Position numbers and translations under genes: made by a program. From positions 1 through 42,877 of the forward strand of contig JAILRI010000130.1 of NCBI GenBank assembly GCA_024698555.1: 42,877 nt of DNA, read 5' to 3'. This stretch comes from Lachnospiraceae bacterium. GTDB lineage: Bacteria > Bacillota > Clostridia > Lachnospirales > Lachnospiraceae. Every line of letters starts with the position of its first letter. Within the stretch, counting starts at the first letter, position 1. The notes under the pieces were generated by a model. It was not told where the DNA came from, made no database searches, and was given only the letters and a program-made list of their open reading frames with translations. Below, in pieces: positions 1,751 to 42,877 of the stretch.

Positions 1751-2968
1751 TCAGGGATTCATATTGATCCACATTGCGGGACGAACACCGTCAACAGAGT
1801 CACCCCCTGTTTTGCTGCCAGGCCATGTTTTATACGTTTTACCATCAAAAGAAATCTCTGGGTAATGCTCGCCCCATTTATATTCTTTTGCTTTAAGTAC
1901 ATCACCACTAACCGTTCCATAAGCAAACAATGACTCAGTATATTTTTTATAAGTGCTATCTAATATCACAGAAAGGTGACCTTCCCTCTTTGATCCCCCC
2001 TCAGTTACATAAGCAATATACTTTTGTGTTTTGCCCGGAGAACGAAGAAGGTAACTGATTTTTGTTCCATCAAATAATGTTGCGCCGTATATACCGTAAT
2101 AATTAGCTTCGTTGTAGGACAGCAAAAATATCCTGTCTTTTGTATCTTCGCCGCCATTTATGCCATAACTATTATTCAGGTCGTTAACTACTTCCGTCTG
2201 AAGGATCAGGTTCTTTCTCTCATTTTCGGAAAAAGCTTCGTAGAGAAAGTCTTCATTCAACCATGAACGGAGCTCGCATTCCTCCCATGTTATGTAATCA
2301 AACTCATTATGATAATACTCTCTGTCCACTACATACCGGCTGATAAATAATGCCGCGCCCTCATCCTCGTCATAATCGAGGCATATCCACTCAATATCCT
2401 GTTCCTTCCTGTTTCCGTTTCGATCGATCATATCATAAGATCCGAGAGTGAAATACACATTGCTCGAATCATCCATCGTCAGTCCCAGCTTGCCGTCTTC
2501 AACCAGAGCGTACAGATCGGGGTACTCTTCCGCCGCGATCTCCTTCATCCTGGCGCTATGGGCGCGGGTTTTGGCATCAACCACGTCTATCTTAACGACC
2601 TTGGAAAAGCTTCCCCATACAGTCTTGCCGGACGCCTTTGAATATGCCCTTACCCGGAAGCTATATGTGCCGGATGAAAGATTTTCAGCATCATATGTGC
2701 GCTTCTTGGTTCCTTTTTTATCAATATCAGCCAGTTTCGAATACTTCTTTGCTCCGGGTGCTTTTACAAATATCCTGTACCCGTCCACATATCTTGTAGA
2801 AGCTATGGTTATCCTGACCTCGCCGTAATTGTCGGTCTCCGACACCTTTACCTCGGGCGCGCCGGGCTTTTCTGCCGCCCGAACCTCTCCTGCTCCTTTA
2901 GCGCCGAACATCCCGACCACAAGGGCAAATGTCAGCACAGCCGCAAGTAACACTTTGATCTTTTTCAT
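1751..2968 (-). CDS. Secreted protein with Fn3-like domain and DUF6273 domain
   Basis: The 405-aa product begins with a clear signal peptide (MKKIKVLLAAVLTFALVVGM, cleavage near VRAAEK at about residue 32). Residues 35-130 look like a fibronectin type III domain (PGAPEVKVSETDN, then VDGYRIFVKAPGAKKYSKLA and TYSFRVRAYSKASGKT). Residues 170-405 match DUF6273, a domain common in clostridial cell-surface proteins: the characteristic pattern IEWICLDYD, ALFISRYVVD, WEECELRSWLN, FLLSYNEANYY, YLLRSPG and a C-terminal GVRPAMWIN is all visible. No catalytic residues are known for the domain, so a carbohydrate or protein ligand at the cell surface is only a guess. AAGGAG lies 9 nt upstream of the ATG. 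It stands alone, with its own upstream region of about 500 bp and no LPXTG or choline-binding anchor. Confidence 0.88.
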   Translation of the reverse strand: MKKIKVLLAAVLTFALVVGMFGAKGAGEVRAAEKPGAPEVKVSETDNYGEVRITIASTRYVDGYRIFVKAPGAKKYSKLADIDKKGTKKRTYDAENLSSGTYSFRVRAYSKASGKTVWGSFSKVVKIDVVDAKTRAHSARMKEIAAEEYPDLYALVEDGKLGLTMDDSSNVYFTLGSYDMIDRNGNRKEQDIEWICLDYDEDEGAALFISRYVVDREYYHNEFDYITWEECELRSWLNEDFLYEAFSENERKNLILQTEVVNDLNNSYGINGGEDTKDRIFLLSYNEANYYGIYGATLFDGTKISYLLRSPGKTQKYIAYVTEGGSKREGHLSVILDSTYKKYTESLFAYGTVSGDVLKAKEYKWGEHYPEISFDGKTYKTWPGSKTGGDSVDGVRPAMWINMNP

Positions 2969-3029
2969 AAGTATCTTCTCCTTTTATATAAAATATGGCA
3001 GACGTGCCTGCAAGACACATCTACCACCT

Positions 3030-3055
3030 ATTGTACCACCCCCCGATTTTGTCAA
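3030..3055 (-). promoter_or_regulatory. Possible extended -10 promoter for the DUF6273 gene
   Basis: On the minus strand a TTGACA (3050-3055) is followed after 14 bp by TACAAT (3030-3035), and TACAAT is preceded by TGG, which is an extended -10. The spacing is too short for a classical promoter, so only the -10 may be used. It lies 62 nt upstream of the start codon. Confidence 0.4.
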
Positions 3056-3406
3056 GAGAAATCTCGCAAACCCGCCATTTTACAGGGTTTCAGGCACTTC
3101 ATTGCGACTCAATTCCCTATTCTTCCAATATACTCATAAGAATACTGCCCTGTTTCCTGCCCTGTTCCCTTGATTTTTCAATGTAAGAAATACTTTAGTT
3201 TGCTAACACATTTTCCGACGAAAAAGTGTTGTATTTTTACACTTATTCGTTTATAGTCAAGCGATTTTATTGTGAAAAATTCAAACCGTCAGAGGCGATA
3301 CGTACATCTTCAGCCGACTTCCGCGAACAGGAGTGGATGAAGAACGTGCCTTTATGGGCAGTGAGCGGAATTTAAATACTTAGCGCGTCTGTGGTAAAAA
3401 AAGTAT
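3056..3406. other. Intergenic region without a gene
   Basis: This stretch separates two divergent genes and has no convincing frame. It holds a short direct duplication (GCCCTGTTTCCT then GCCCTGTTCCC, about 3147-3171) and a small inverted repeat AAGTGT/ACACTT around 3224-3244. Neither is placed like a terminator, and no riboswitch fold was recognised. Confidence 0.5.
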
Positions 3407-32592: not shown

Positions 32593-35019
32593 TTACCAGT
32601 ACCATCCGTAATCGCTGTCATCATAATCACCGTAATCGTCATAATCACCATAGTCATCGTAATCACCATAGTCATCGTAATCACTATAGTCATCGTAATC
32701 ACCATAGTCACTGTAATCACCATAGTAATCATAATCACCGTAACCGGTGAAGTCTTCAAGCAGGTCCTCTCCGTCCTCACTGAAGTAGATCTCTCCGTTC
32801 TCGGTAAGCTGGAAGAATATCGGATCGGTGATCAGATAATCGCCGTAAATATCGTCTATGCAGAAGGCGTACATATAGACGCCGGGCTCCATCAGATCAT
32901 AAACCACATCAGTGGTTCCCTTGACCTTATAAGGCTGGCCTTCATACTCAAATTCCTCGCCGCCTTCAATGGTATAAGCTGTATAAAGCGGTATGATCAC
33001 ATCACCCTTTTTAAGCTTCACTACGTCACGCGACGCGGCTCCGCTCTCATCGATACCGTCCCAGGCTCCTTCGACAACTGCTGTTCCCTTGCTGTAATCG
33101 ATCCTGATACGCAGATTGGTATCCTCTCCGTTCAATGATACCGGAGAAGTATATAGCACATAATCATCCCCACTGTCCACTATGTAGGTTGCCAGTTCCT
33201 GTCCATCGGGAAGTGATATCCACTCTCCGTCGAAAGCATCGTAAACTATACCGGTATCCTCGTCACAATTGATATCTACAGTCTGGCCGATCTCAATATA
33301 GTTTTCAAGATCATCCGAAAGCATATACACAAAAGCGGTAACATCCGATACGGCATCCCATCCGTAGTCGTCAAGCAGGAAGCAGTAATTGCCCTCATCA
33401 TCAAACTGCGGCTCATATTCAAAGGTTATGAAAGGACTCTCTCCCGACTGCTCGTAGCCATCGAGATATTCCCAATAATCTTCGTAATCGTTATCCTCGT
33501 CATAGTCCCAGTAACCATAATCCCACTCACCGTAATCATCAAACCAGGTATCATCGTCATAAGCGGTATCGAAATTACCCGATACACCGTAGCTGTTCTG
33601 CCTGTCGACAAATGAGAGATAATAGGGGCTTACGCATACCTTGCCGAAAATGGACAATTCCTGCGAACCTTGCACGCTCAGAGGGAAATACGTCGCAAGA
33701 CCTGAAGCATCCCTGTGCTGTGAACCGTTTTTCTTGTAAACGATCGCGTCATCAAGAGCCTTAAGCGCCGATGCCGCGTTACTTGAATATGACGAGCAGG
33801 ATTCTATGATCCCGCCTAAGTCAACCATGTTGGTATAGCCCTCGGAACGATTGTTGCCGCCATAATTATCAACCGACTCTATCGCTTTTACGATCTTTGA
33901 ACGGCTCGATGAGTCCTCGCCTGCTTCGTACATATCCTTGGCGAAGGTATTGAAGCTGGTGAGCAGCGCGTCCACTTTTGACAGGTCGATTATTGAAAAT
34001 GTAGCTCCGTCCTCTTCATTCGTCTGTTTGCAGCTCTCATAGAAGCTGTCTGCCACTACTTTGCCGAGGGAAGCGCCATCGGCATCCGGATTTGACGACA
34101 GGAAATTACCTATGGCTGTATAATCCCAGCCCAGTCCGGGCTCAGTCTCCTCTGAACCGAACATATAATCCGAGTATGTAGCCAGAATGTTCGCCGCTTC
34201 AATAGTACCCATCAGGCATGCGTCAAAGCCTATAAAATCAAATCTGTAGCCGGTACCTGAAACAGCTGATGAAAGTGCCTGATCCAGCTCCATCAGGTCG
34301 ATGGATTCATTGTTGTACAGCTCGTCGAAGCATACTCCGGTGATACTTCCGCCGCCATGATTCCAAAGGTCAAGACCTATATGTTCGCTTGCATAGTTTG
34401 CCAGTCCCCATTTGACGAATGCCTCAAGAGTATCTCCCTTTCCCATGCTGGCGCTCTTCTGCTCATCAACTAAGGATATCTCTCCGTTCTGAATCAGATA
34501 TCTCTGAAGCTTGCCTGAGTCAACCAGATTATTGTCCCAGTAGCTGGCACCTCCGGTCTGAACGATGAACCTTACCCGGTCACTGTTCGCGCCGTCCATC
34601 ATTTCCTGCATATCCATGGTGCCCACCGAGTTGCCCGATTCCAGATCGGTTCCGCACAGATAAACGAAAAACGTCCATACGGAATCCGAGCCACTTGAAC
34701 CGGCACTGCGGCTGACAGGCATACGGCTGACTGTAAGCTGTCCGTCCTTATTCACCTTCATGTTCACGCTTCTGGATACGGCCGTATCATTCTGAACATT
34801 ACTGCCTGTTGTCGTGTTCTGGTCGGATTTTGTGTCATCCTGCTGCGTCTTGCCGGTCAGGTCCGTCTTTTTTCCGTCATCGGAAGCAATCGGATTGATG
34901 TTCTCTACTGTTTTCTTATCCTCTTCTTCGTAAGGCTCGTCATCTGAGCAGGCTGTAAGCGAGGTGAGCGAAAAAACAAGCACCAATACCATTAACAGAC
35001 TGAATATTCGCTTTTTCAT
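32593..35019 (-). CDS. Secreted lipoprotein protease of family C11 (clostripain-like) with Asp/Tyr repeat tail
   Basis: The 808-aa product begins with a lipoprotein signal (SLTSLTAC, lipobox Cys at about residue 24) after a helical leader. A polar linker follows to about residue 115, then the C11 domain (WTFFVYLCGTDLESGNSVGT, IVQTGGASYW, DLWNHGGG with the catalytic His near 221, IGFDACLMG with the catalytic Cys near 266). C11 peptidases cut after Arg or Lys and are activated by self-cleavage. After an Asp/Trp/Tyr-rich stretch (about residues 490-530) comes a beta-rich region, and a final Gly-Asp-Tyr tail of about 50 residues encoded by 18-bp tandem repeats. It has AAAGGG before the ATG. The gene is single, with a hairpin upstream; it converges on maf and opens the right-hand protease cluster. 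Confidence 0.92.
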   Translation of the reverse strand: MKKRIFSLLMVLVLVFSLTSLTACSDDEPYEEEDKKTVENINPIASDDGKKTDLTGKTQQDDTKSDQNTTTGSNVQNDTAVSRSVNMKVNKDGQLTVSRMPVSRSAGSSGSDSVWTFFVYLCGTDLESGNSVGTMDMQEMMDGANSDRVRFIVQTGGASYWDNNLVDSGKLQRYLIQNGEISLVDEQKSASMGKGDTLEAFVKWGLANYASEHIGLDLWNHGGGSITGVCFDELYNNESIDLMELDQALSSAVSGTGYRFDFIGFDACLMGTIEAANILATYSDYMFGSEETEPGLGWDYTAIGNFLSSNPDADGASLGKVVADSFYESCKQTNEEDGATFSIIDLSKVDALLTSFNTFAKDMYEAGEDSSSRSKIVKAIESVDNYGGNNRSEGYTNMVDLGGIIESCSSYSSNAASALKALDDAIVYKKNGSQHRDASGLATYFPLSVQGSQELSIFGKVCVSPYYLSFVDRQNSYGVSGNFDTAYDDDTWFDDYGEWDYGYWDYDEDNDYEDYWEYLDGYEQSGESPFITFEYEPQFDDEGNYCFLLDDYGWDAVSDVTAFVYMLSDDLENYIEIGQTVDINCDEDTGIVYDAFDGEWISLPDGQELATYIVDSGDDYVLYTSPVSLNGEDTNLRIRIDYSKGTAVVEGAWDGIDESGAASRDVVKLKKGDVIIPLYTAYTIEGGEEFEYEGQPYKVKGTTDVVYDLMEPGVYMYAFCIDDIYGDYLITDPIFFQLTENGEIYFSEDGEDLLEDFTGYGDYDYYGDYSDYGDYDDYSDYDDYGDYDDYGDYDDYGDYDDSDYGWYW
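32622..32745. repeat. 18-bp tandem repeat encoding the Asp/Tyr tail
   Basis: On the plus strand the unit TAATCACCATAGTCATCG is repeated about six times with few changes. In the minus frame it gives DYGDYD-type units. Such a tract can change length by slippage without a frameshift because 18 is divisible by 3. Confidence 0.85.
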
Positions 35020-35142: not shown

Positions 35143-35877
35143 TTACAGATAGTTAGCAAAGCTGAAGTCTGTAGGCATCGGGATGGTAAACATATATACC
35201 GTTGCGATCACGAAGCCGACTACGGCAACTATCAGAACCACTCTTCTGTTCGGGATATTCTTGAATATTCCGACGATACCGAGCAGGAACAGCACGATGG
35301 AGTAAATAACGGTAACCAGACCGAACTTATCTCCGTTGGAGTTGTCTGCCTGACCCTGATCCAGAAGCTCCTGAGACTCGGCAAGCAGCTCATTGGCTGT
35401 TACAAAATACTTATCAACCAGACCGGGTACCTCAAAGGGAGATTCCATATCATCAGTCATCTCATCAAAGCCTTCAGCCAGTATTTCACTGCAGTTCTGT
35501 TCGATATAGGATTCAAGCTTTGCTTCGATCATAGCGGCTTCATCTTCCCTGCCCTCATAGAGATTACAGATCTCGATGTCGATCTGGTAGTTCATCATCT
35601 CATTCCATGCCATGAGGTCGGACAGATAAGTCTGCAGAGCGGAATTATACTCTGAATTGCCTTCAGCGGCCAGATTGTTGCTCTTGGTATAATTGGTCGC
35701 CTGGTTGCCGCCGTGAAGTGAACCGATCCAGGAAGCCCATGCAGTGAGCAGCGCAGTTACGCCCAGGAAAATAGCACACAGCAGCTCGATGGTCTTTTCG
35801 TTTAAGAATCCCTTCTTTCCGCCGTTTTCATTTTCAGCATTTTCAGTTGTTTCAGTTGCGTTTGTAATTTCTTCCAT
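35143..35877 (-). CDS. Membrane protein with three helices and large soluble loop
   Basis: I do not recognise a named family with certainty; the shape is like DUF4337-type proteins. The 244-aa product has a polar N terminus (about 30 residues), a membrane helix at about 31-52 (IELLCAIFLGVTALLTAWAS), a 130-residue soluble helical loop rich in Glu, and two closely spaced helices at about 185-205 and 212-233. The loop starts SLHGGNQATNYTKSNNLAAE, also seen in small membrane proteins that bind partners. Either the loop is outside and the N terminus inside, or the reverse. AAGGAG lies 7 nt upstream. It has its own promoter of the shared 60-bp type. Confidence 0.82.
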   Translation of the reverse strand: MEEITNATETTENAENENGGKKGFLNEKTIELLCAIFLGVTALLTAWASWIGSLHGGNQATNYTKSNNLAAEGNSEYNSALQTYLSDLMAWNEMMNYQIDIEICNLYEGREDEAAMIEAKLESYIEQNCSEILAEGFDEMTDDMESPFEVPGLVDKYFVTANELLAESQELLDQGQADNSNGDKFGLVTVIYSIVLFLLGIVGIFKNIPNRRVVLIVAVVGFVIATVYMFTIPMPTDFSFANYL

Positions 35878-35938: not shown

Positions 35939-35998
35939 ATAATAAGTGAGATAAAAAAAAATGTATAGTAACCCTAAGGCTAATTCGCCTGTTTTTTT
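35939..35998 (-). promoter_or_regulatory. Shared-module promoter, copy 1 (membrane protein)
   Basis: On the minus strand the -10 is TATTAT (35939-35944), then a 17-bp spacer, then a poor -35 TATACA (35962-35967). Directly upstream comes GGGTTAC and, 24 nt from the -35 edge, an A7 tract (35992-35998). The order and spacing match copies at 36584-36642 and 37177-37236 without a gap. Confidence 0.8.
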
Positions 35999-36023
35999 AT
36001 TCATACTCTCTCTTATTCCAACG

Positions 36024-36065
36024 AAAAGGGCTGTCGCATCAAGTCCGAAAGGAAGCGGCAGCCCT
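36024..36065 (-). terminator. Terminator of the 128-aa protein gene
   Basis: AGGGCTGTCGC (36027-36037) pairs with GCGGCAGCCCT (36055-36065) with one G-U pair, and TTTT follows on the minus strand. It is 58 nt past the stop at 36123 and is of the GGGCTGTCGC stem type. Confidence 0.85.
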
Positions 36066-36122
36066 GAATTAATTATCTCGAACGAAAAATTTGTTTATTG
36101 TCGCGATAATAAATGTTTATGA

Positions 36123-36509
36123 TCAAAGTCCGAGTGCGTTGAATTCAGCAACTACCGCATCAACCTGCTGCTCGCAGAGCTTGCTGTTCTTTCCGCCGAG
36201 TGATCCAAGATTGCCCAGACCATTGGTAAGCGCGCCGATCACAGCATTCTTCGCCATATTATCAAGTCCTGCTGCTTCAGCCTTCAGGATAGTCCACTTA
36301 TTGCCTTCCTGACCTGTCAGCCAGCCCTGAGTGATCTGAACCTGATTCTGCCTGTCAACCTCAGGGAAAGCGATGATAGTCGCAAATCCCTGCTTAACAA
36401 GATTGGGTTTGCCGGGAGTAAACTCATGATCCTTGATCGCCTCGTAAAGAGACTGAATGTTATACTTGTTTTTTGTTTCAACTTTCTTCTGCTTAATTCC
36501 GAGTGCCAT
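36123..36509 (-). CDS. Unknown 128-aa cytoplasmic protein
   Basis: I do not recognise this protein. It has no signal peptide or membrane helix. The first 40 residues are basic and polar (MALGIKQKKVETKNKYNIQS, then LYEAIKDHEF), and a middle hydrophobic-polar region follows. A Gly/Asn/Leu-rich stretch comes near residues 90-110 (NAVIGALTNGLGNLGSLGGK) and the end is helical (LCEQQVDAVVAEFNALGL). The start at 36507-36509 has AGGAGG 9 nt upstream. A shared-module promoter and a tight 13-bp hairpin in its leader suggest regulation. It lies between a lipoprotein gene and a membrane-protein gene with the same promoter type, so a common role at the cell surface is possible but unproven. Confidence 0.8.
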   Translation of the reverse strand: MALGIKQKKVETKNKYNIQSLYEAIKDHEFTPGKPNLVKQGFATIIAFPEVDRQNQVQITQGWLTGQEGNKWTILKAEAAGLDNMAKNAVIGALTNGLGNLGSLGGKNSKLCEQQVDAVVAEFNALGL

Positions 36510-36535
36510 AACAAAAACCTCCTGAAAATAAAATT

Positions 36536-36565
36536 GTCCCATATGGGATGTCTCCCATATGGGAC
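36536..36565 (-). promoter_or_regulatory. Leader hairpin or operator: twin TCCCATATGGGA palindromes
   Basis: The 12-bp perfect palindrome TCCCATATGGGA occurs at 36537-36548 and again at 36553-36564, 4 bp apart. With the flanking G and C they also pair with each other as a 13-bp stem with a 4-nt loop. It lies 27-56 nt upstream of the start codon, right after the likely transcript start. It could be an operator for a dimeric repressor or a stabilising 5' hairpin. Confidence 0.8.
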
Positions 36566-36583
36566 CCACACAGCTTCGTGGAA

Positions 36584-36642
36584 ATTATAATCAAAAACGC
36601 TTCGGTTGAAAAGTAACCTCAGGGCTAATTTGCCTGTTTTTT
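36584..36642 (-). promoter_or_regulatory. Shared-module promoter, copy 2 (128-aa protein)
   Basis: -10 TATAAT (36584-36589), 17-bp spacer, -35 TTTTCA (36607-36612), then GGTTAC, and an A6 tract (36637-36642) at the same 24-nt spacing as in the two other copies. Confidence 0.8.
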
Positions 36643-36652
36643 CACGTTTTTA

Positions 36653-37108
36653 TTACTGAAGAGCGTTGTAGATCTCGTCAGCCTGTGATTCGGTAAGTCT
36701 TCCCGCCGCATAGATATCACCCGAGCTCATGTCTACAAGATAAATATCATCGCCGCCGTTGTCAACATAACCGATCTGAAGATTGCCAACAGTTACCAGA
36801 AGATAATCTGTTCCGTTCGGGGTCTGAGCCTTCTCAACGGTGTACTGTGCAAGAGCTTCGTTTGTTCCGTCATTTACATAAGCAACATCACCAGCTGATC
36901 CCTCATAAAAAGCGATCATAAAATCGCTTCCCTGTCCGTTATTGGCATAGAAACCATCAACGAAGCTTACACCTGAAGCATTTCCTGTGCTTACGTTTGA
37001 ACTGTTATTTGCGTTGCTGCCGGATGAATCACTGTCACCACCGCAGGCTGTCAATGTAAATACTGCCAGAGCAGCAACCAGCAACATAGCCAATACTTTC
37101 TTTTTCAT
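36653..37108 (-). CDS. Lipoprotein of unknown function, 151 aa
   Basis: The product starts MKKKVLAMLLVAALAVFTLT with lipobox LTAC, so the mature protein begins at Cys22 and is anchored outside the membrane. A Ser/Asn/Gly linker of about 20 residues follows. The domain at about 50-151 looks like a small beta-sheet protein (VSFVDGFYANNGQGSDFMIA, then YVDNGGDDIYLVDMSSGDIY) and ends LTESQADEIYNALQ. I do not know its family. GAGGAG lies 7 nt upstream of ATG 37106-37108. It has its own promoter (shared module, copy 3). No clear terminator separates it from the next gene's promoter, so some read-through into the 128-aa gene is possible. Confidence 0.88.
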   Translation of the reverse strand: MKKKVLAMLLVAALAVFTLTACGGDSDSSGSNANNSSNVSTGNASGVSFVDGFYANNGQGSDFMIAFYEGSAGDVAYVNDGTNEALAQYTVEKAQTPNGTDYLLVTVGNLQIGYVDNGGDDIYLVDMSSGDIYAAGRLTESQADEIYNALQ

Positions 37109-37176
37109 TTTGTCTCTCCTCTTTGATTGAAATAATTTTCGTCCCGGACACATCATTTTCCGGACACCGAGGGAAT

Positions 37177-37236
37177 ATGATAATAGAGTTGGTATGAAAT
37201 GTATAGTAACCCTAAGTAGTACATCGATGTTTTTTT
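37177..37236 (-). promoter_or_regulatory. Shared-module promoter, copy 3 (lipoprotein)
   Basis: -10 TATCAT (37177-37182), 17-bp spacer, -35 TATACA (37200-37205), then GGGTTAC, and an A7 tract (37230-37236) 24 nt further. The inner part between A-tract and core differs from the other two, but the spacing does not. Confidence 0.8.
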
Positions 37237-37249
37237 ACTCCTGCACAAT

Positions 37250-37282
37250 AAACAAAAAAGACCTCTTATCAGGAGGTCTTTT
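37250..37282 (-). terminator. Terminator of the subtilase gene
   Basis: AAAAGACCTC (37256-37265) pairs with GAGGTCTTTT (37273-37282) around a 7-nt loop; on the minus strand TTTTTTG follows. It lies 41 nt after the stop at 37323. Confidence 0.92.
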
Positions 37283-37322: not shown

Positions 37323-39557
37323 TCAACCGCCTACACTGCCGGAGGACACTATATTGCCGTAGTAATCGTAAGCAGTATATGTAATAGTGATACCTCCGCC
37401 CTGGTAGGATCTGGTCACGTTTATTCCGGAACCGTTATTTACCAGTTCCTCCCTGTTTCCGTTTGAAAATACCAATATTATGTTCTTTACTCCGGCACCG
37501 GCAACAACACTGAGATTCAACATCATCTTTCCGTTGGAATACGAGGATGAGGTGCTGATGCTGACGGATGTATTGCCTGAATATACAGGCTGAGTGGGAT
37601 AAGGGTTCTGGGTAGGCCATACTATCTGCGTAGGATACGGATTCTGCGTAGGATACACTATCTGCGTGGGATATGGGCTCTGCGTAGGATACACTATCTG
37701 CGTAGGGTACGGATTCTGCGTAGGCCATACTATCTGTGTGGGATAAGGGTTCTGCGTAGGATACACTATCTGCGTGGGATAAGCAGGCTGTGTAGGTGCC
37801 GGCTGCGATGTAGGAACAGCAGTAGGACGTGGTGTGGGTGTAATATAGCTGTCACCTCCGCCGTTTATTTCCAGGGCTGATACATCCGGAACGCCATATC
37901 CGTAATAATAGTCAAATCCGGCAGTTCCAAGATCCTGTGCGCATGAGCGCAGGATACTTTCAACCGTCGAGCATGAAGCAGAAGGACGGATGAGTCTTAC
38001 CAGTGCCGCCAGTCCGCTTACATGAGGAGTCGCCATGGATGTACCTGACATGTATTCATATGAATTACCGGGTACCGTGCTGTAAATATCAACTCCGGGA
38101 GCTGCCACATCCACGCTTGAACCGTAGTTGGAAAAATAAGCCCTGTTTTTGCCCGAATCGATGGCAGCCACTACTATAGCGCTGTTATTGTGAGCCGGGC
38201 AGGAATAAGCCGTATCGCTGCTCTCATTGCCGGCGGCAACCACTACAACGCATCCGTAAGAGAGAGCCGTGGAAATCGCCTGATCTTCATAGTGATTTGA
38301 CCCGGTAGAAGCTCCACCCAGGCTCAGATTGATCACATCCGCCCCCTGCTGTGCCGCGTAAGTTATGCCGTTCGCGACAGCCAGGCTCGAACCATAGCCC
38401 TGTCCGGATAGAACCTTGACGGGAAGAAGCTTAACATTGGCACCTGAAGCGGTATTTATGACTATACCGGCACAATGTGTCCCATGGCTGTTATCGTCAT
38501 AAGCGTCATAATCACTGTTGATAAAGTCATAACCCTTTGATACCACATGCTGGCTCAGGTAACTATGATTGTAATCTATGCCTGTATCCACGATAGCTAC
38601 GGTAACACTGCCGCTTACTCCGGCGGATTTGATCCTCTCCGCAAGCACATCGGCTCCAAGCATGGCTACATTCCAGTCGGCTCCGCTTCCACCGTAATCA
38701 TCCGTATTGCCATCATCATTACCCGGATTCCAAAGATCATCCCATCCGGGGATTTCGCCCCAGTCGTCCCAGTTATCCCAATCATCAAAATCCTGTGTAT
38801 TCTGCTTCTTAACAGTGTTTTCAGATTGTTTTCCGGATTCGGGCTCTATCATGCTGATAAACTTGTCAGGCTCGACATAAGACACCTTTTTGTTTTCCGA
38901 CAGTTTTTCAAAAGCAGCCTTTGTATCCTTTTCGGTAGCAAACTGAAGAACATAAGTGTTACCGTTTACAGCGCTTTTTATCGCACCGTACGTATCGGGA
39001 GATATTCTTCTGCTGCTCTTCATTTCAACGATCAGGCGCTTGAGCTGGAAGGGTCTGGTAACGCTCAGACCGTCATCCGTCTGTACGATGTCATAGCATA
39101 AATTGTTCTCAAGCTCCTCGGCATTGATCATATACTTTCCGTTTTTCTTGACCGGTTTGTTCTCAAAAGTATAGGTTTCGCCGTCGATAGTCGATGTCTT
39201 CTTTCCGACCCTGCAGCTCCAGGTAAATTCATCTGAAGAGATCGTAAACCTCTTGCCCTTCTGCTTGTAGCTCAAGCCTGCGTCCTCGCAGAAAGAGTCA
39301 GCCGACAGATACCACTCCCCGTCTATCAGACAGGCTTCCGTATCATCGGAGAAGTTGAGACTGGTAAAATAATCATCCTCCCAATACTCGGATATCATCT
39401 GTGCCGCGGCGGCATAATACTCTAAAGACGGGTTGGAACCGTCTACGCCGTCAGGAATATACAGATCCACCGCACCCGCGGGAACAGCCGTGAACGGATC
39501 GATAATCAGCAATAATGTAAGAAGCAGACTGATGATCTTAAAAATAACACGCTTCAT
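37323..39557 (-). CDS. Secreted subtilase (S8) with prodomain-like region and PTQ repeat linker
   Basis: The 744-aa product has a signal peptide (about 1-30, ending VPAGA). A region of about 200 residues includes a copper-amine-oxidase-like or inhibitor-I9-like fold (STIDGETYTFENKPVKKNGK; VLQFATEKDTKAAFEKLSEN). An Asp/Trp-rich linker (DFDDWDNWDDWGEIPGWDDL) precedes the S8 domain. The catalytic triad is complete: Asp in AIVDTGID (about 322), His in SHGTHCAG (about 358), Ser in SGTSMATPH (about 506). A long Pro-Thr-Gln linker (YPTQIVYPTQNPYPTQ) and an about 80-residue C-terminal beta domain follow. It acts outside the cell, probably on proteins or on surface partners. I used ATG 39555-39557 (GGAGG 8 nt upstream). 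The regulator's stop is only 29 bp upstream, so the two are one transcript. Confidence 0.95.
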   Translation of the reverse strand: MKRVIFKIISLLLTLLLIIDPFTAVPAGAVDLYIPDGVDGSNPSLEYYAAAAQMISEYWEDDYFTSLNFSDDTEACLIDGEWYLSADSFCEDAGLSYKQKGKRFTISSDEFTWSCRVGKKTSTIDGETYTFENKPVKKNGKYMINAEELENNLCYDIVQTDDGLSVTRPFQLKRLIVEMKSSRRISPDTYGAIKSAVNGNTYVLQFATEKDTKAAFEKLSENKKVSYVEPDKFISMIEPESGKQSENTVKKQNTQDFDDWDNWDDWGEIPGWDDLWNPGNDDGNTDDYGGSGADWNVAMLGADVLAERIKSAGVSGSVTVAIVDTGIDYNHSYLSQHVVSKGYDFINSDYDAYDDNSHGTHCAGIVINTASGANVKLLPVKVLSGQGYGSSLAVANGITYAAQQGADVINLSLGGASTGSNHYEDQAISTALSYGCVVVVAAGNESSDTAYSCPAHNNSAIVVAAIDSGKNRAYFSNYGSSVDVAAPGVDIYSTVPGNSYEYMSGTSMATPHVSGLAALVRLIRPSASCSTVESILRSCAQDLGTAGFDYYYGYGVPDVSALEINGGGDSYITPTPRPTAVPTSQPAPTQPAYPTQIVYPTQNPYPTQIVWPTQNPYPTQIVYPTQSPYPTQIVYPTQNPYPTQIVWPTQNPYPTQPVYSGNTSVSISTSSSYSNGKMMLNLSVVAGAGVKNIILVFSNGNREELVNNGSGINVTRSYQGGGITITYTAYDYYGNIVSSGSVGG
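37588..37800. repeat. Tandem repeat of the subtilase Pro-Thr-Gln linker
   Basis: Units of 21 bp, grouped as 42-bp pairs (GTAGGATACACTATCTGCGT and variants), encode YPTQIV[Y/W]PTQNP. About ten PTQ units are present. Copies are nearly identical, which suggests recent expansion. Confidence 0.85.
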
Positions 39558-39586
39558 AGACACACCCTCCGAACATAAACAGTTTT

Positions 39587-41959
39587 TTATCTTCCTCTGT
39601 ATACCAGCCCTATCTGTACCGCCTTGCGTTCCGCCTCGGCGCGGTTCGAGGCACCCAGTTTGGCATATATGCTCCTGTTATGCTTTTTTAAGCAGGCATA
39701 AGTTATCTCGCACTTTGTGCATATATCTTCCGATGTCAGGCCTGAACACAGCATGGAAAGTATCTGGGATTCCCTCTTTGTCAGCTTTATCATATTTTTG
39801 GGGATCATCCGCAGATAATCAGGATAGTACAGTGCCATCTGATTTGCTTCAGCCAGTACCTGAGATAGAAATTCCCAGTTGATATCCTGTATCTGCGCAA
39901 GCTGTGTCAGTTCATTCAGCAGAGGTAATACTGCCTCTCCTTCAAGAGATATCACCCTGATAAAATGGTATGGTTCAGCAAGCTTAAGCGCATCGATCAG
40001 GTATTCCTTCCACAAAGGATCTCCCAGACGGTAAAATATGACCGCCCTCAATACTTCATTTTGGATATGATAGTATTTTCTGTCATATTCCATAAAATAT
40101 CCGTCAAGAAAAAACGAAAGATCTGCCGCTTTTTCAAGCTCACCGACGGCTATAAGGGCTTTAAGCCGCATCATCTGGACGTAGCGGTCCAGCGTGCAGA
40201 ACGCTGACCTGGCGTCATGTGTCCCCGCTACAAAACCACTTGCAGACGCATTTCCCGTATACAGCGACAGGTACATGCCAAAGGCTTCAATTTCGGGCAT
40301 CAGCCATGAAGCACCTGAATCTGCGGCATATTTTTTAAAACTTGTATATATCTCCACGGCCATGGGCCGATCCCCATCCATGATATATTGTCTGGCCTGT
40401 ACCCCCATAGAGGCAAAGGCTATCTCGCAGCTGCCGCCTCTTATCGCCTCCGAATATCCCTGAGCGCATCGTGACAGTACATCCCGCGATCTCATGGAAC
40501 CTTTTTCAAACCCGCTTTCGGCTGCAACCGTTGTAACAAGCCCCTTGCCAAATCTTCCCGTTATAGCTTCAACAGGTGCCTTCACGAGTTTTTCCATCTG
40601 AGTATCGTTTTTTACCCAATCACAAAGATCAAGACCGCCGTTCATGATCGAGGGAGAATTCCCGGTAACGGATAATTCAGGAAGCTTAACATTTTCCTTC
40701 TTTGCATACTCAAAGGTGTCTTTTAACGTTTTCTGCAGCCCCTTTGTACCTTTATGAGGCAGCGCAATATTCAGGTAGGCAAGCCAGAAAGCCGCTTTGC
40801 TCCGACTTTCCCGGCTGTTATTCCTATCCTTTTCATAATCGGATAAGCGTTCGTACCATAACTTTGACAGTTCTTTTTTTAGAATGATCGAACATAGCAT
40901 GCTCATACCGGCCATGAGCAGCGGCTCCTGCATGATCTCAGTCTCACTCATTTCAAAGTAGTAGTCCTTCATTTCTACCAGACTTCCTACACCGGGACGT
41001 AAGGCAGCTTCCCGCATCAAAATACTTCTGATATGTTCGGTTTCTCCCGCCAGTTTATAGTATTTCAGAGCTTTGGTCACCTCGCCCTTTTCCTCAAAAT
41101 AGCGGGCACCGCGCCTGTAATTTTCTTTTTTATCCTGCTGTGTCCACAGCAGACTTTTCTTCCATTCGAAATAACGTCTCATCTCAGGTCTTAACATATA
41201 ATATCCGTCATTTTTATAGATGAGCTGATTCGTGTTCCGTCTGCAATACTCGATAACTTTGCCAGCCGACGGATTGCCGGTAACTTTCTGAGTCATTTCA
41301 ACGTTGAAATCATCATAGCCGCACATTGCCAACGCGAACTCACGGAAATCCTCATTCCACTGCCCATACACCACATCGTCCCACATATGGAACAGATCCT
41401 GCCAGACAGCTTCCTGCAAATCGTCACTGTAGCGCTCTCCATGCTGCATGTGTCTGGCATAATAGAACAGGGCTATAGGATATCCTTCGGATGTGCCGGT
41501 CACCTGATCAATATCCTCTTCATCGGCTGTAATTCCAAGAAGATCAAAGTAATCCCTCACTTCATTCTTTCCAAACGCAAGATCGGCCTCGGTTATCCGG
41601 ATAAAATCCAGCCCCATCTCATCACCGGCCAGCTATTCCGGAACATTGCCCTGGGTGATCAGTACTATCTGCTTTTCATTTCTTTGCAGGAGAGTATGTA
41701 TATAAGTGATCGATTGCTCTTCGGTAAGCCATTGCATATTATCTATGATGATAATACTGCGTCTGATGGAATCGGGATTCGGCCTTTCAAGCAGGTTACC
41801 TGAACTGCAGTCCAGGATCAGGGGGTTCTTACGCCGGTAATAATACTTTACCGCCGCGCTCTTGCCCCATCCGTGGGCAGCTGTTATGATCACGGGGCGA
41901 AAGCTTTCTTCCGCTTTCTTAAGCTTGTCATAAGCCGCCGCAACCTTAATGTATTTCAT
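39587..41959 (-). pseudogene. MalT-type LuxR-family regulator broken by an in-frame TAG
   Basis: ATG 41957-41959 (GGAG 6 nt upstream) opens 108 codons with an ATPase start: Walker A AAHGWGKS at 27-34 and Walker B SIIIIDNMQWL. The frame then hits TAG at 41633-41635 and continues without a shift for 681 more codons to the true end. The second part has TPR-like helical repeats and a C-terminal LuxR helix-turn-helix (LTKRESQILSMLCSGLTSED, then ICTKCEITYACLKKHNRSIY). Related STAND regulators usually read PEWL where this one reads PE-stop-L, so TGG to TAG is the likely change. The parts may be made separately: an ATG (41615-41617) 15 nt after the stop opens the downstream frame. It controls, or once controlled, the adjacent subtilase and perhaps the shared-module promoters. 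Confidence 0.85.
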
Positions 41960-42001
41960 GCGCATCTCCAAAACAGGATAATAAGCAGTCACAGCCGATA
42001 A

Positions 42002-42080
42002 TTTAAAGGGCTGCCGCACTATGCAGATAACACGACCGGAAGATCGAGTCATATGCTTTATATACTAGTGTGACAGCCCC
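42002..42080 (-). terminator. Long-armed hairpin, likely terminator of the LURP-like gene
   Basis: GGGCTGCCGCACTA (42008-42021) and TAGTGTGACAGCCC (42066-42079) pair over 14 bp with one wobble and one mismatch. The loop is 44 nt. On the minus strand TTTAAATT follows. It is of the GGGCTGTCGC stem type, 39 nt after the stop at 42118. Confidence 0.65.
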
Positions 42081-42117: not shown

Positions 42118-42877
42118 TTAATTCTTATTGGAATCAACCACGTTATCGCATATGATAGTGAGAGTGACCATGATATCCTGATAGCTCTCATCATAAACAA
42201 CGATACGGTAGCAATCCTGCCAAATAGTCTGAGCGGTATCGATATGTCCGATAAGAGTGCCGCCGACACGGATATCAAAATTGAATCCGAACAGATCTCC
42301 GTCGATCTTAAGTTCCTTTCCGTTAATAGTTCCTACCAGTTCGGGAGCAGTCAGCTTCAGCTTCTTCTTGATCTGTCCGATCTCGCTTCCGCCGATAACG
42401 ATAGTATACTCAGGCATAACGGCTACCAGTTTCTTCTTAAGCTTGACAACCTCAGTGCCGTTCTTCTGGATACCGAAATTAAGTCTGGGAAGATCGCCCT
42501 CTATATGATAAACCGGGGTCTCCTTCTCGTCAAAGATATCAAACTTGGGCTTAAGTGAGATAGCCTTCTGCTTCATGAAGAACTTGATCTCACTGCCGGT
42601 GGAATTAGAAGCAACTGTAGCAGCTCTCTCACTTGTAGAAACGCTTTCACCTGCCTCAAGCTTCTTAAGCACGTCAGCCAGCTCATCAACCGCATGATCT
42701 GCCTTTGAGGTGCCCTCGCCCTTATGTCCGAGGAAAAGATCCATACCCATGCTGAGTGCCGCGGTGCCGCCGCCTACGCTGTCCTTTGGTATCTTGCCGC
42801 AGATCACATTTTTGCCGTCGATACGGGCGAAAACATTGAACATATCGGAAACGCCCATATACATAACCGACTGTGTT
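42118..42877 (-). CDS. LURP-one-related / Tubby C-terminal-like protein (cut by window edge)
   Basis: The visible 248 or more residues end in a LURP-one-like (LOR, YxjI-type) beta-barrel domain, from about residue 95: KFDIFDEKETPVYHIEGDLP, then KLKKKLVAVMPEYTIVIGG, LVGTINGKELKIDGDLFGFN and DIRVGGTLIGHID. The N-terminal part has a Gly-rich stretch (VGGGTAALSMGMDLFLGHKG) and a helical Ser/Glu linker. The frame has no stop up to the end of the window (42877), and the internal ATG codons lack a ribosome binding site, so the true start is probably outside. LOR domains bind membrane phospholipids or act as scaffolds; the function in bacteria is unknown. It lies upstream of the regulator-subtilase pair and is separated from it by a hairpin. 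Confidence 0.8.
   Translation of the reverse strand, partial: TQSVMYMGVSDMFNVFARIDGKNVICGKIPKDSVGGGTAALSMGMDLFLGHKGEGTSKADHAVDELADVLKKLEAGESVSTSERAATVASNSTGSEIKFFMKQKAISLKPKFDIFDEKETPVYHIEGDLPRLNFGIQKNGTEVVKLKKKLVAVMPEYTIVIGGSEIGQIKKKLKLTAPELVGTINGKELKIDGDLFGFNFDIRVGGTLIGHIDTAQTIWQDCYRIVVYDESYQDIMVTLTIICDNVVDSNKN

Follow-up and report, generated by a model that had tools for sequence, protein, structure and literature searches.

Three neighbouring genes in the window, i.e., the whole stretch of 42,877 nucleotides from a Lachnospiraceae bacterium that was analysed, share one gapless promoter module. Quite probably this module serves a local surface-gene regulon, as its promoter and as the site bound by a MalT-type STAND/LuxR activator which is encoded next to it. 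The initial annotation had described three copies of the module and suspected a small cell-surface regulon, perhaps controlled by the nearby LuxR protein. Our analyses support the regulon. Across 397 family genomes a strict form of the pattern turns up exclusively in the company of a regulator homologue, no more than about 4 kb away. Sites in 44 orthologue loci are grouped around the regulator, and many stand ahead of its own gene. The three copies hold; instead of three, however, the regulon has at least four promoters.

The promoter module

The pattern A6-N18-GGTTAC-N23-TATNAT is matched perfectly at three places of the assembled genome (3,152,691 bases in 275 contigs, 94% complete), all of them in the window and on the minus strand. 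Allowing up to one mismatch the window again yields three matches, versus none in 100 dinucleotide shuffles. The description of three neighbouring genes with one gapless module is thus exact, and without mismatch the module occurs nowhere else in the assembly. At three mismatches specificity is gone, with 27 genome matches versus 18 for the backward pattern. A pattern made of the A-tract and the operator is more selective: at up to three mismatches in the whole genome it recovers three of the four promoter sites discussed here and no other match, with none in the backward control; module 2 is the site which falls below the cut. A separate pattern derived from the window has five matches in the own genome at three mismatches, three of which are the module copies, versus four backward. 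In relatives it gave single matches with two mismatches in eight of 60; by eye, A-tract and -10 box are not properly placed in these eight, and they were discarded.

Module 1, ahead of the membrane protein gene, extends from 35939 to 35997 (minus strand). It consists of an A-tract (35992-35997), an operator (35967-35984, ATTAGCCTTAGGGTTACT), the -35 box TATACA (35962-35967) and the -10 box TATTAT (35939-35944). Module 2 of the 128-aa protein gene (36584-36642, minus) has the same order of A-tract, operator (36612-36629, ATTAGCCCTGAGGTTACT), -35 box TTTTCA and -10 box TATAAT (36584-36589). Module 3 of the lipoprotein gene (37177-37235, minus) likewise starts with an A-tract; its operator (37205-37222, GTACTACTTAGGGTTACT) possesses a poor, degenerate left arm and is followed by TATACA and, at 37177-37182, TATCAT. 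All three spacers measure 17 bp and each -35 hexamer agrees with TTGACA in four of six positions, so the far-from-consensus -35 boxes, the spacers and the -10 boxes are as originally described. From the end of the -10 box to the start codon it is 61 nt for the membrane protein (start at 35877), 74 nt for the 128-aa protein (36509), and 68 nt for the lipoprotein (37108). Generic sigma-70-like sites are not in excess between 34900 and 37400 (six found, 5.0 expected). Therefore, the case rests on the module and not on generic promoter scores.

The view that the downstream genes are no duplicates is confirmed. The encoded membrane protein (MEM), the 128-aa protein (P128), the lipoprotein and the LURP-one-related protein (LOR) introduced below are mutually unlike (best pair E = 0.19). 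When 280-nt pieces are compared, DNA likeness between the copies is limited to the module, i.e., 31 nt for modules 1 and 2 and 68 nt for modules 1 and 3, and stops at its edges; one extra weak match (E = 0.03) links the leaders of modules 1 and 3.

Leader hairpins had been seen by eye at the four own sites. As a property common to all sites they were rejected, the mean z being -0.9 over 52 sites with seven below -2; among the four own sites only module 2 is extreme (z -5.1). There, the leader of the 128-aa gene carries at 36536-36565 a perfect 13-bp inverted repeat with a 4-nt loop and an A-T-rich stretch after it. It is terminator-like and possibly represents an attenuator behind module 2. 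Another terminator-like hairpin, distinct from module 3, stands before this module at 37256-37282.

Gene neighbourhood and a fourth copy

All genes of the locus are located on the minus strand. A LOR gene (42118-42877, Pfam PF04525) is truncated at the window end; its 5' part is found on the adjoining contig C193. Between LOR and the lipoprotein gene lie the gene of the MalT-like regulator, the proposed operator binder (39587-42052), and, 23 nt behind it, that of a subtilase (S8) with a Cu-amine-oxidase N1-like domain (37323-39563). The latter is probably cotranscribed with the regulator gene; both genes are adjacent also in the relative G014, in reversed order. The small lipoprotein gene (36653-37108) is the first behind module 3. 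P128 (36123-36509), behind module 2, has no Pfam or NCBIfam match; its AlphaFold2 model has a mean pLDDT of 68.8 and finds no counterpart in the PDB (E up to 0.001). MEM (35143-35877), behind module 1, has Pfam matches below cut-off only. Then follows a clostripain-family (C11) lipoprotein-like protease, recognised by Pfam (32593-35019), which lacks a module in the window.

The last 24 bases of the window (42854-42877) overlap positions 1-24 of C193. This end overlap lies in mid-gene, and by it the two contigs are probably neighbours in the genome. The LOR gene starts on C193 and runs into the window. Ahead of it, at C193:234-292 on the minus strand, module 4 is located. It deviates from the pattern by two mismatches, the remaining sequence is also alike, and its -10 box lies 63 nt upstream of the LOR gene start. 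Thus, four promoters in this neighbourhood carry the module.

The regulator

The carboxy-terminal part of the regulator (39587-41617) comprises a TPR region and a GerE/LuxR helix-turn-helix, the amino-terminal part (41636-42052) a P-loop ATPase. GerE (PF00196) is matched with E = 7.6e-12 at residues 612-664 of the 676-aa part. Other domains of the window protein, the chain of which is broken by a TAG codon, stay below the Pfam cut-offs: AAA_22 scores 24.8 versus 27, AAA_16 20.9 versus 32.6, and TPR_MalT 31.6 versus 45. Regulators of the MalT type (STAND, LAL) carry an N-terminal P-loop ATPase, a TPR region, and a GerE domain on a single chain of roughly 800-900 aa; the orthologues, where most complete, consist of one frame of 785-810 aa. 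One of them (G159) has a partial match to the NCBIfam model NF003420 for MalT with 78.9 bits versus a cut-off of 537, i.e., it falls short of the maltose regulator proper. Neither an autoinducer-binding nor a receiver domain is matched by Pfam in the window regulator. The nearby LuxR protein of the initial annotation is therefore of the LuxR/GerE type as assumed, yet it is probably a MalT-type STAND/LuxR protein rather than a simple LuxR.

The TAG is a single in-frame codon at 41633-41635 in the ATPase part. The frame is open on either side, and most orthologues are uninterrupted. The gene may be decaying, or the codon may be an assembly error. Should it be real, loss of the activator from the regulon may be under way in interrupted strains, or the DNA-binding part may act alone. 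The search for a second close homologue in this genome found none (one match at E up to 1e-30), and the window's own regulator gene has no module upstream. An interruption is also seen in locus L165 (the same locus as G181), where a DDE-transposase gene (PF13701; 5928-7292, minus) splits the regulator. Two operator sites remain. Conserved sites thus need no intact neighbour gene at present.

In several relatives a conserved protein of about 88 aa with the start MKWK or similar is encoded behind the regulator gene, in the place of the subtilase of the window (L149 12260-12526; L157 5499-5765; L163 12051-12317; L176 12146-12412; L117, reversed, 2905-3171). The L149 copy has no Pfam match. The protein is a possible partner of the regulator.

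The predicted operator and its position in the promoter

The conserved core GGTTAC is present as annotated, but the core extends beyond it to an 18-bp palindrome, with GGTTAC in one of the arms; relatives keep this palindrome better. In the best relative and as a consensus it reads AGTACCCCT joined directly to AGGGGTACT. In the window, GGTTAC belongs to the right arm. The palindrome is perfect in L148 (AGTACCCTTAAGGGTACT) and L167 (AGTACCCCTAGGGGTACT); all other sites have 4 to 8 of 9 pairs. Sites before P128 have the right arm AGGGTTACT in L174 and L176, as in the window, and AGAGTTACT in L157. The module recurs in other genera; in G181, for example, AAAAAACAGGCAAAGTAGCCATAGGGGTACTATAC is followed further on by TAAAAT and lies upstream of a lipoprotein-like gene.

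With a start inferred at 7 nt behind the -10 box the operator spans -52 to -35 and its centre is at -43.5. The last operator base is the first base of the weak -35 box. The A-tract is situated near -60 to -65 at a fixed distance from the operator. This arrangement, i.e., an operator which touches a poor -35 box (four of six), a 17-bp spacer, and a centre near -43.5 relative to this start, corresponds to a class II position.

Conservation of sites in orthologue loci

A scan of named genomes gave 45 regulator loci, mostly with Lachnospiraceae labels, besides Butyrivibrio, Oribacterium, Eubacterium, and a few Ruminococcus or other labels. One of them, L183 from Cohnella, which matches in the GerE part only with 35% identity, was left out. 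Up to 10,000 bases per side were scanned in the remaining 44. The search used a 37-base consensus composed by eye from the window and G127, G181, G323, G159, and G377. There is some circularity in the counts since these sources recur among the 44 loci as L155, L165, L153, L177, and L171, and G150, G294, and G336 recur as well; none of the 44 contigs is as long as that of the window. A site was accepted at 24 or more of 35 matches, the maximum in reversed sequence being 23. Fifty places reached this score; removal of two reverse-strand palindrome shadows (L140, L173) left 48, and four places with a score of 23 remained below the cut.

The 48 forward sites are distributed over 35 loci, and reversed sequence contains none at that score. 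The -10 box, which is outside the consensus, has at least four of six matches in every one of the 48 sites at the best of the spacings 16-18; the spacing is 17 in 39 sites, 18 in five, and 16 in four. A same-strand reading frame begins within about 400 nt of 45 of the 48. The distance between site and regulator frame has a median of 302 bases and a maximum of 3,858. Nine of the 44 loci are without a site at this threshold. Of these, L179-L181 are fragments of contigs, weaker candidates exist in L169 and L172, and no site was found in L158-L160 and L170.

We built a matrix from the 39 foreign sites with spacer 17, which were themselves chosen with the by-eye consensus. It scores the own sites at 56.3, 51.2 (module 1), 40.8 (module 2), and 22.0 (module 3). 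In 50.8 kb the next scores are 9.8, which is the reverse-strand shadow of module 1, and then -6.8; the best score of the reversed control is -7.1. The initial annotation would have been contradicted by a matrix that matches random sites as often as promoters. This did not occur in the part covered, i.e., genome-wide for the patterns and over the window and C193 for the matrix.

A scan free of the consensus, looking for palindrome, A-tract, and -10 box, gave 73 forward versus 29 reverse-strand matches in all stretches, counts which include duplicates from overlapping stretches and evident chance matches. Many of the forward matches precede regulator genes, and in a more distant clade the half-sites are ACTACCC, ACTATCC, and CCTACCC. 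None of the window's own four sites is picked up, their arms being too imperfect; the two places that the scan reports in the window are different ones.

The first gene behind the 48 sites is the regulator in 16 cases, lipoprotein-like in nine, C11 in three, P128 in three, and LOR in one; other frames follow in 13, and three sites have none within reach. These labels were assigned by phmmer with E limits of 1e-3 or 1e-4, and weak matches among the lipoprotein-like genes of relatives may rest on the signal peptide. The module precedes C11 genes in L153, L168, and L178 and P128 in L157, L174, and L176; in the latter three and in G014 the P128-MEM pair is conserved. Eight of the other frames were run against Pfam and five were above cut-off: bacterial PH-domain, AIM24, transglutaminase-like, thioredoxin-like, and RNase H, the last with a gene start 250 nt away. 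Examples of genes behind the module are a 2,920-aa frame in L167 (2431-11193), an AIM24-family gene in L151 (8771-9583), and a transglutaminase-like gene in L154 (3282-4727).

Deviant palindromes are present in just two loci, L164 (ATTACACTTGAGTGTAAT) and L177 (TGTCCACCTGGGTGGAAT and a near copy). Of the 35 loci the same two possess deviant recognition helices, GLKKHNYN and TVKKYNSR versus (G/A)LKKHN(R/K). For such a coincidence of two and two among 35 the probability is P = 0.0017, in a comparison made post hoc. Helices are deviant in L170 and L181 as well; since the search gave no site in either locus, these two neither support nor refute a pairing of helix and operator.

Occurrence in the family

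With the G014 protein as a query (E up to 1e-20) regulator homologues are found in 51 of 397 sampled family genomes; with the window protein (E up to 1e-30) they are found in two of 24 genomes from the genus, counting the present one. The neighbourhoods of the homologues recur in varying sets of C11 proteases, small lipoprotein-like genes, LOR, the P128-MEM pair, and subtilase. The strict pattern CAGNCNNNGTANCCNTNGGGGTACTAT at up to two mismatches has nine sites in six of the 397 genomes (G000, G127, G150, G181, G323, G377). All six carry a regulator homologue, for which P = 3.4e-6 by chance given 51 of 397, with position not yet used. Every site lies within about 4 kb of the homologue, for one G000 site by way of the probable contig adjacency. 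The backward control has seven matches in seven genomes, one of which (G311) is among the 51. Since this is nearly as many (seven versus nine), the family-wide case rests on place, not on number. No strict-pattern match is present in 45 of the 51 genomes with a homologue; some of these have variant palindromes in the same layout. Going by sequence, it is the regulator gene that accompanies the operator site. Since many related gut bacteria keep this switch next to the same regulator gene, the operator is very probably the landing site of the neighbouring protein.

Proposed mechanism and alternatives

We propose that the MalT-type STAND/LuxR protein (39587-42052), once switched on by an inducer, would settle as a dimer via its GerE domains on the 18-bp palindrome. 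In the class II position, with the final operator base opening the weak -35 box, it would contact sigma and the alpha subunit, and the A-tract would probably add an upstream (UP-like) contact. In this manner the regulator would turn on the lipoprotein, 128-aa protein, membrane protein, and LOR genes. In relatives, it would also turn on its own gene and C11 proteases. Our confidence is tempered because the consensus-free scan misses the window sites and because of the second interrupted regulator in L165.

The same protein might bind the same operator as a repressor, or with a sign that depends on the promoter. Since palindrome and -35 box overlap, a protein sitting there could block the polymerase, and sites before the regulator gene (16 of 48) would fit negative autoregulation. 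We consider this unlikely, given weak -35 boxes combined with good spacers and -10 boxes. Moreover, the MalT protein of Actinoplanes, whose sites have the same position, acts as an activator according to the available part of the report (PMC7567727). A little less probable still is that the palindrome is recognised by a different transcription factor, which would have the regulator gene among its targets. Binding by the regulator is a prediction from sequence, and in the window and in L165 the regulator gene is interrupted though the sites look intact. Further, the 44 loci share the regulator by construction. The 397 genomes, however, were not picked for the regulator and the sites still occur only beside a homologue, for a pattern that came from such loci, and deviant helices accompany deviant operators.

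A role of the palindrome and its A-rich and T-rich flanks in transcription termination, or as an RNA hairpin, appears very improbable. A T-run does follow several copies, e.g., in L148 and L171, and the reverse strand also ends in a T-run. Yet a -10 box at a nearly fixed distance in all sites and the nearby same-strand frame starts speak against such a reading; moreover, a terminator scan reports none of the three window modules, and a separate hairpin is already present before module 3. Least of all do we believe in a recent duplication of one promoter region or in chance likeness of A-T-rich promoters. Modules 1 and 2 do share more than the operator (AAAAAACAGGC.AATTAGCC), but the letters in common are those conserved in other genera, the likeness ends at the module edges, and the shuffled sequences gave no match. 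Thus, activation by the MalT-type protein from the palindrome is the explanation we prefer.

Relation to known systems and meaning

NarL/FixJ-type sites are TACYYMT heptamers, and the half-site TACCC of the present operator resembles them. Differences are an arm spacing that deviates by two bases and the lack of a receiver domain match. The quorum-sensing LuxR regulators bind the lux box, a palindrome of about 20 bp centred at -42.5, according to the available parts of two reports (PMC4471428, PMC7585371). The present 18-bp palindrome near -43.5 is similar in being a palindrome for a LuxR-type DNA-binding domain; it differs in sequence, and an autoinducer-binding domain is not matched.

With MalT of E. 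coli and Klebsiella the regulator has in common the C-terminal GerE domain and, by matches below cut-off in the window protein, the MalT-like TPR region and the N-terminal ATPase. The MalT box consists of GGA(T/G)GA repeats, as quoted in the part available of PMC7567727. The half-site differs here: instead of such boxes near maltose genes, palindromes of the TACCC type are predicted as sites, and the genes close to them encode regulator, protease, lipoprotein-like, and LOR proteins. The score of the G159 orthologue given above is far below the MalT cut-off. In Actinoplanes sp. SE50/110, as the same portion of this report states, MalT activates a maltose-regulated large genomic region via TCATCC-5nt-GGATGA, with the 3' end of the motif 34.4 +/- 1.0 bases from the start at 17 starts (PMC7567727). 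Both systems share a MalT-type regulator (a probable one here), a palindrome that overlaps the -35 box, and targets gathered in one region, and the operator ends at 35 bases from the inferred start here versus the 34.4 +/- 1.0 there. Unlike in Actinoplanes, the arms abut without a 5-nt spacer, an A-tract is present at a fixed distance, and target genes and phylum are different (PMC7567727).

Among the literature matches listed, none describes the regulon or the targets of the regulator in this family. The type of switch is already known; this particular one seems undescribed. On balance, we incline to the view that it belongs to a widespread, undescribed STAND/LuxR system of Lachnospiraceae and some relatives. 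Its sensor-activator would be ATP-dependent, and the envelope and surface genes under it would form a local and variable group, coding for small lipoproteins, clostripain-like and subtilisin proteases, LOR, bacterial PH, and AIM24-like proteins. Between clades, the operator code would shift together with the recognition helix.

By these findings, a regulator with homologues in 51 of 397 family genomes gains a predicted operator, a promoter geometry, and a list of targets. The regulon ties proteins without an assigned role to a set of surface proteases and lipoproteins, and this gives a handle on their function. The pairs of helix and operator constitute a small natural series for reading GerE specificity.
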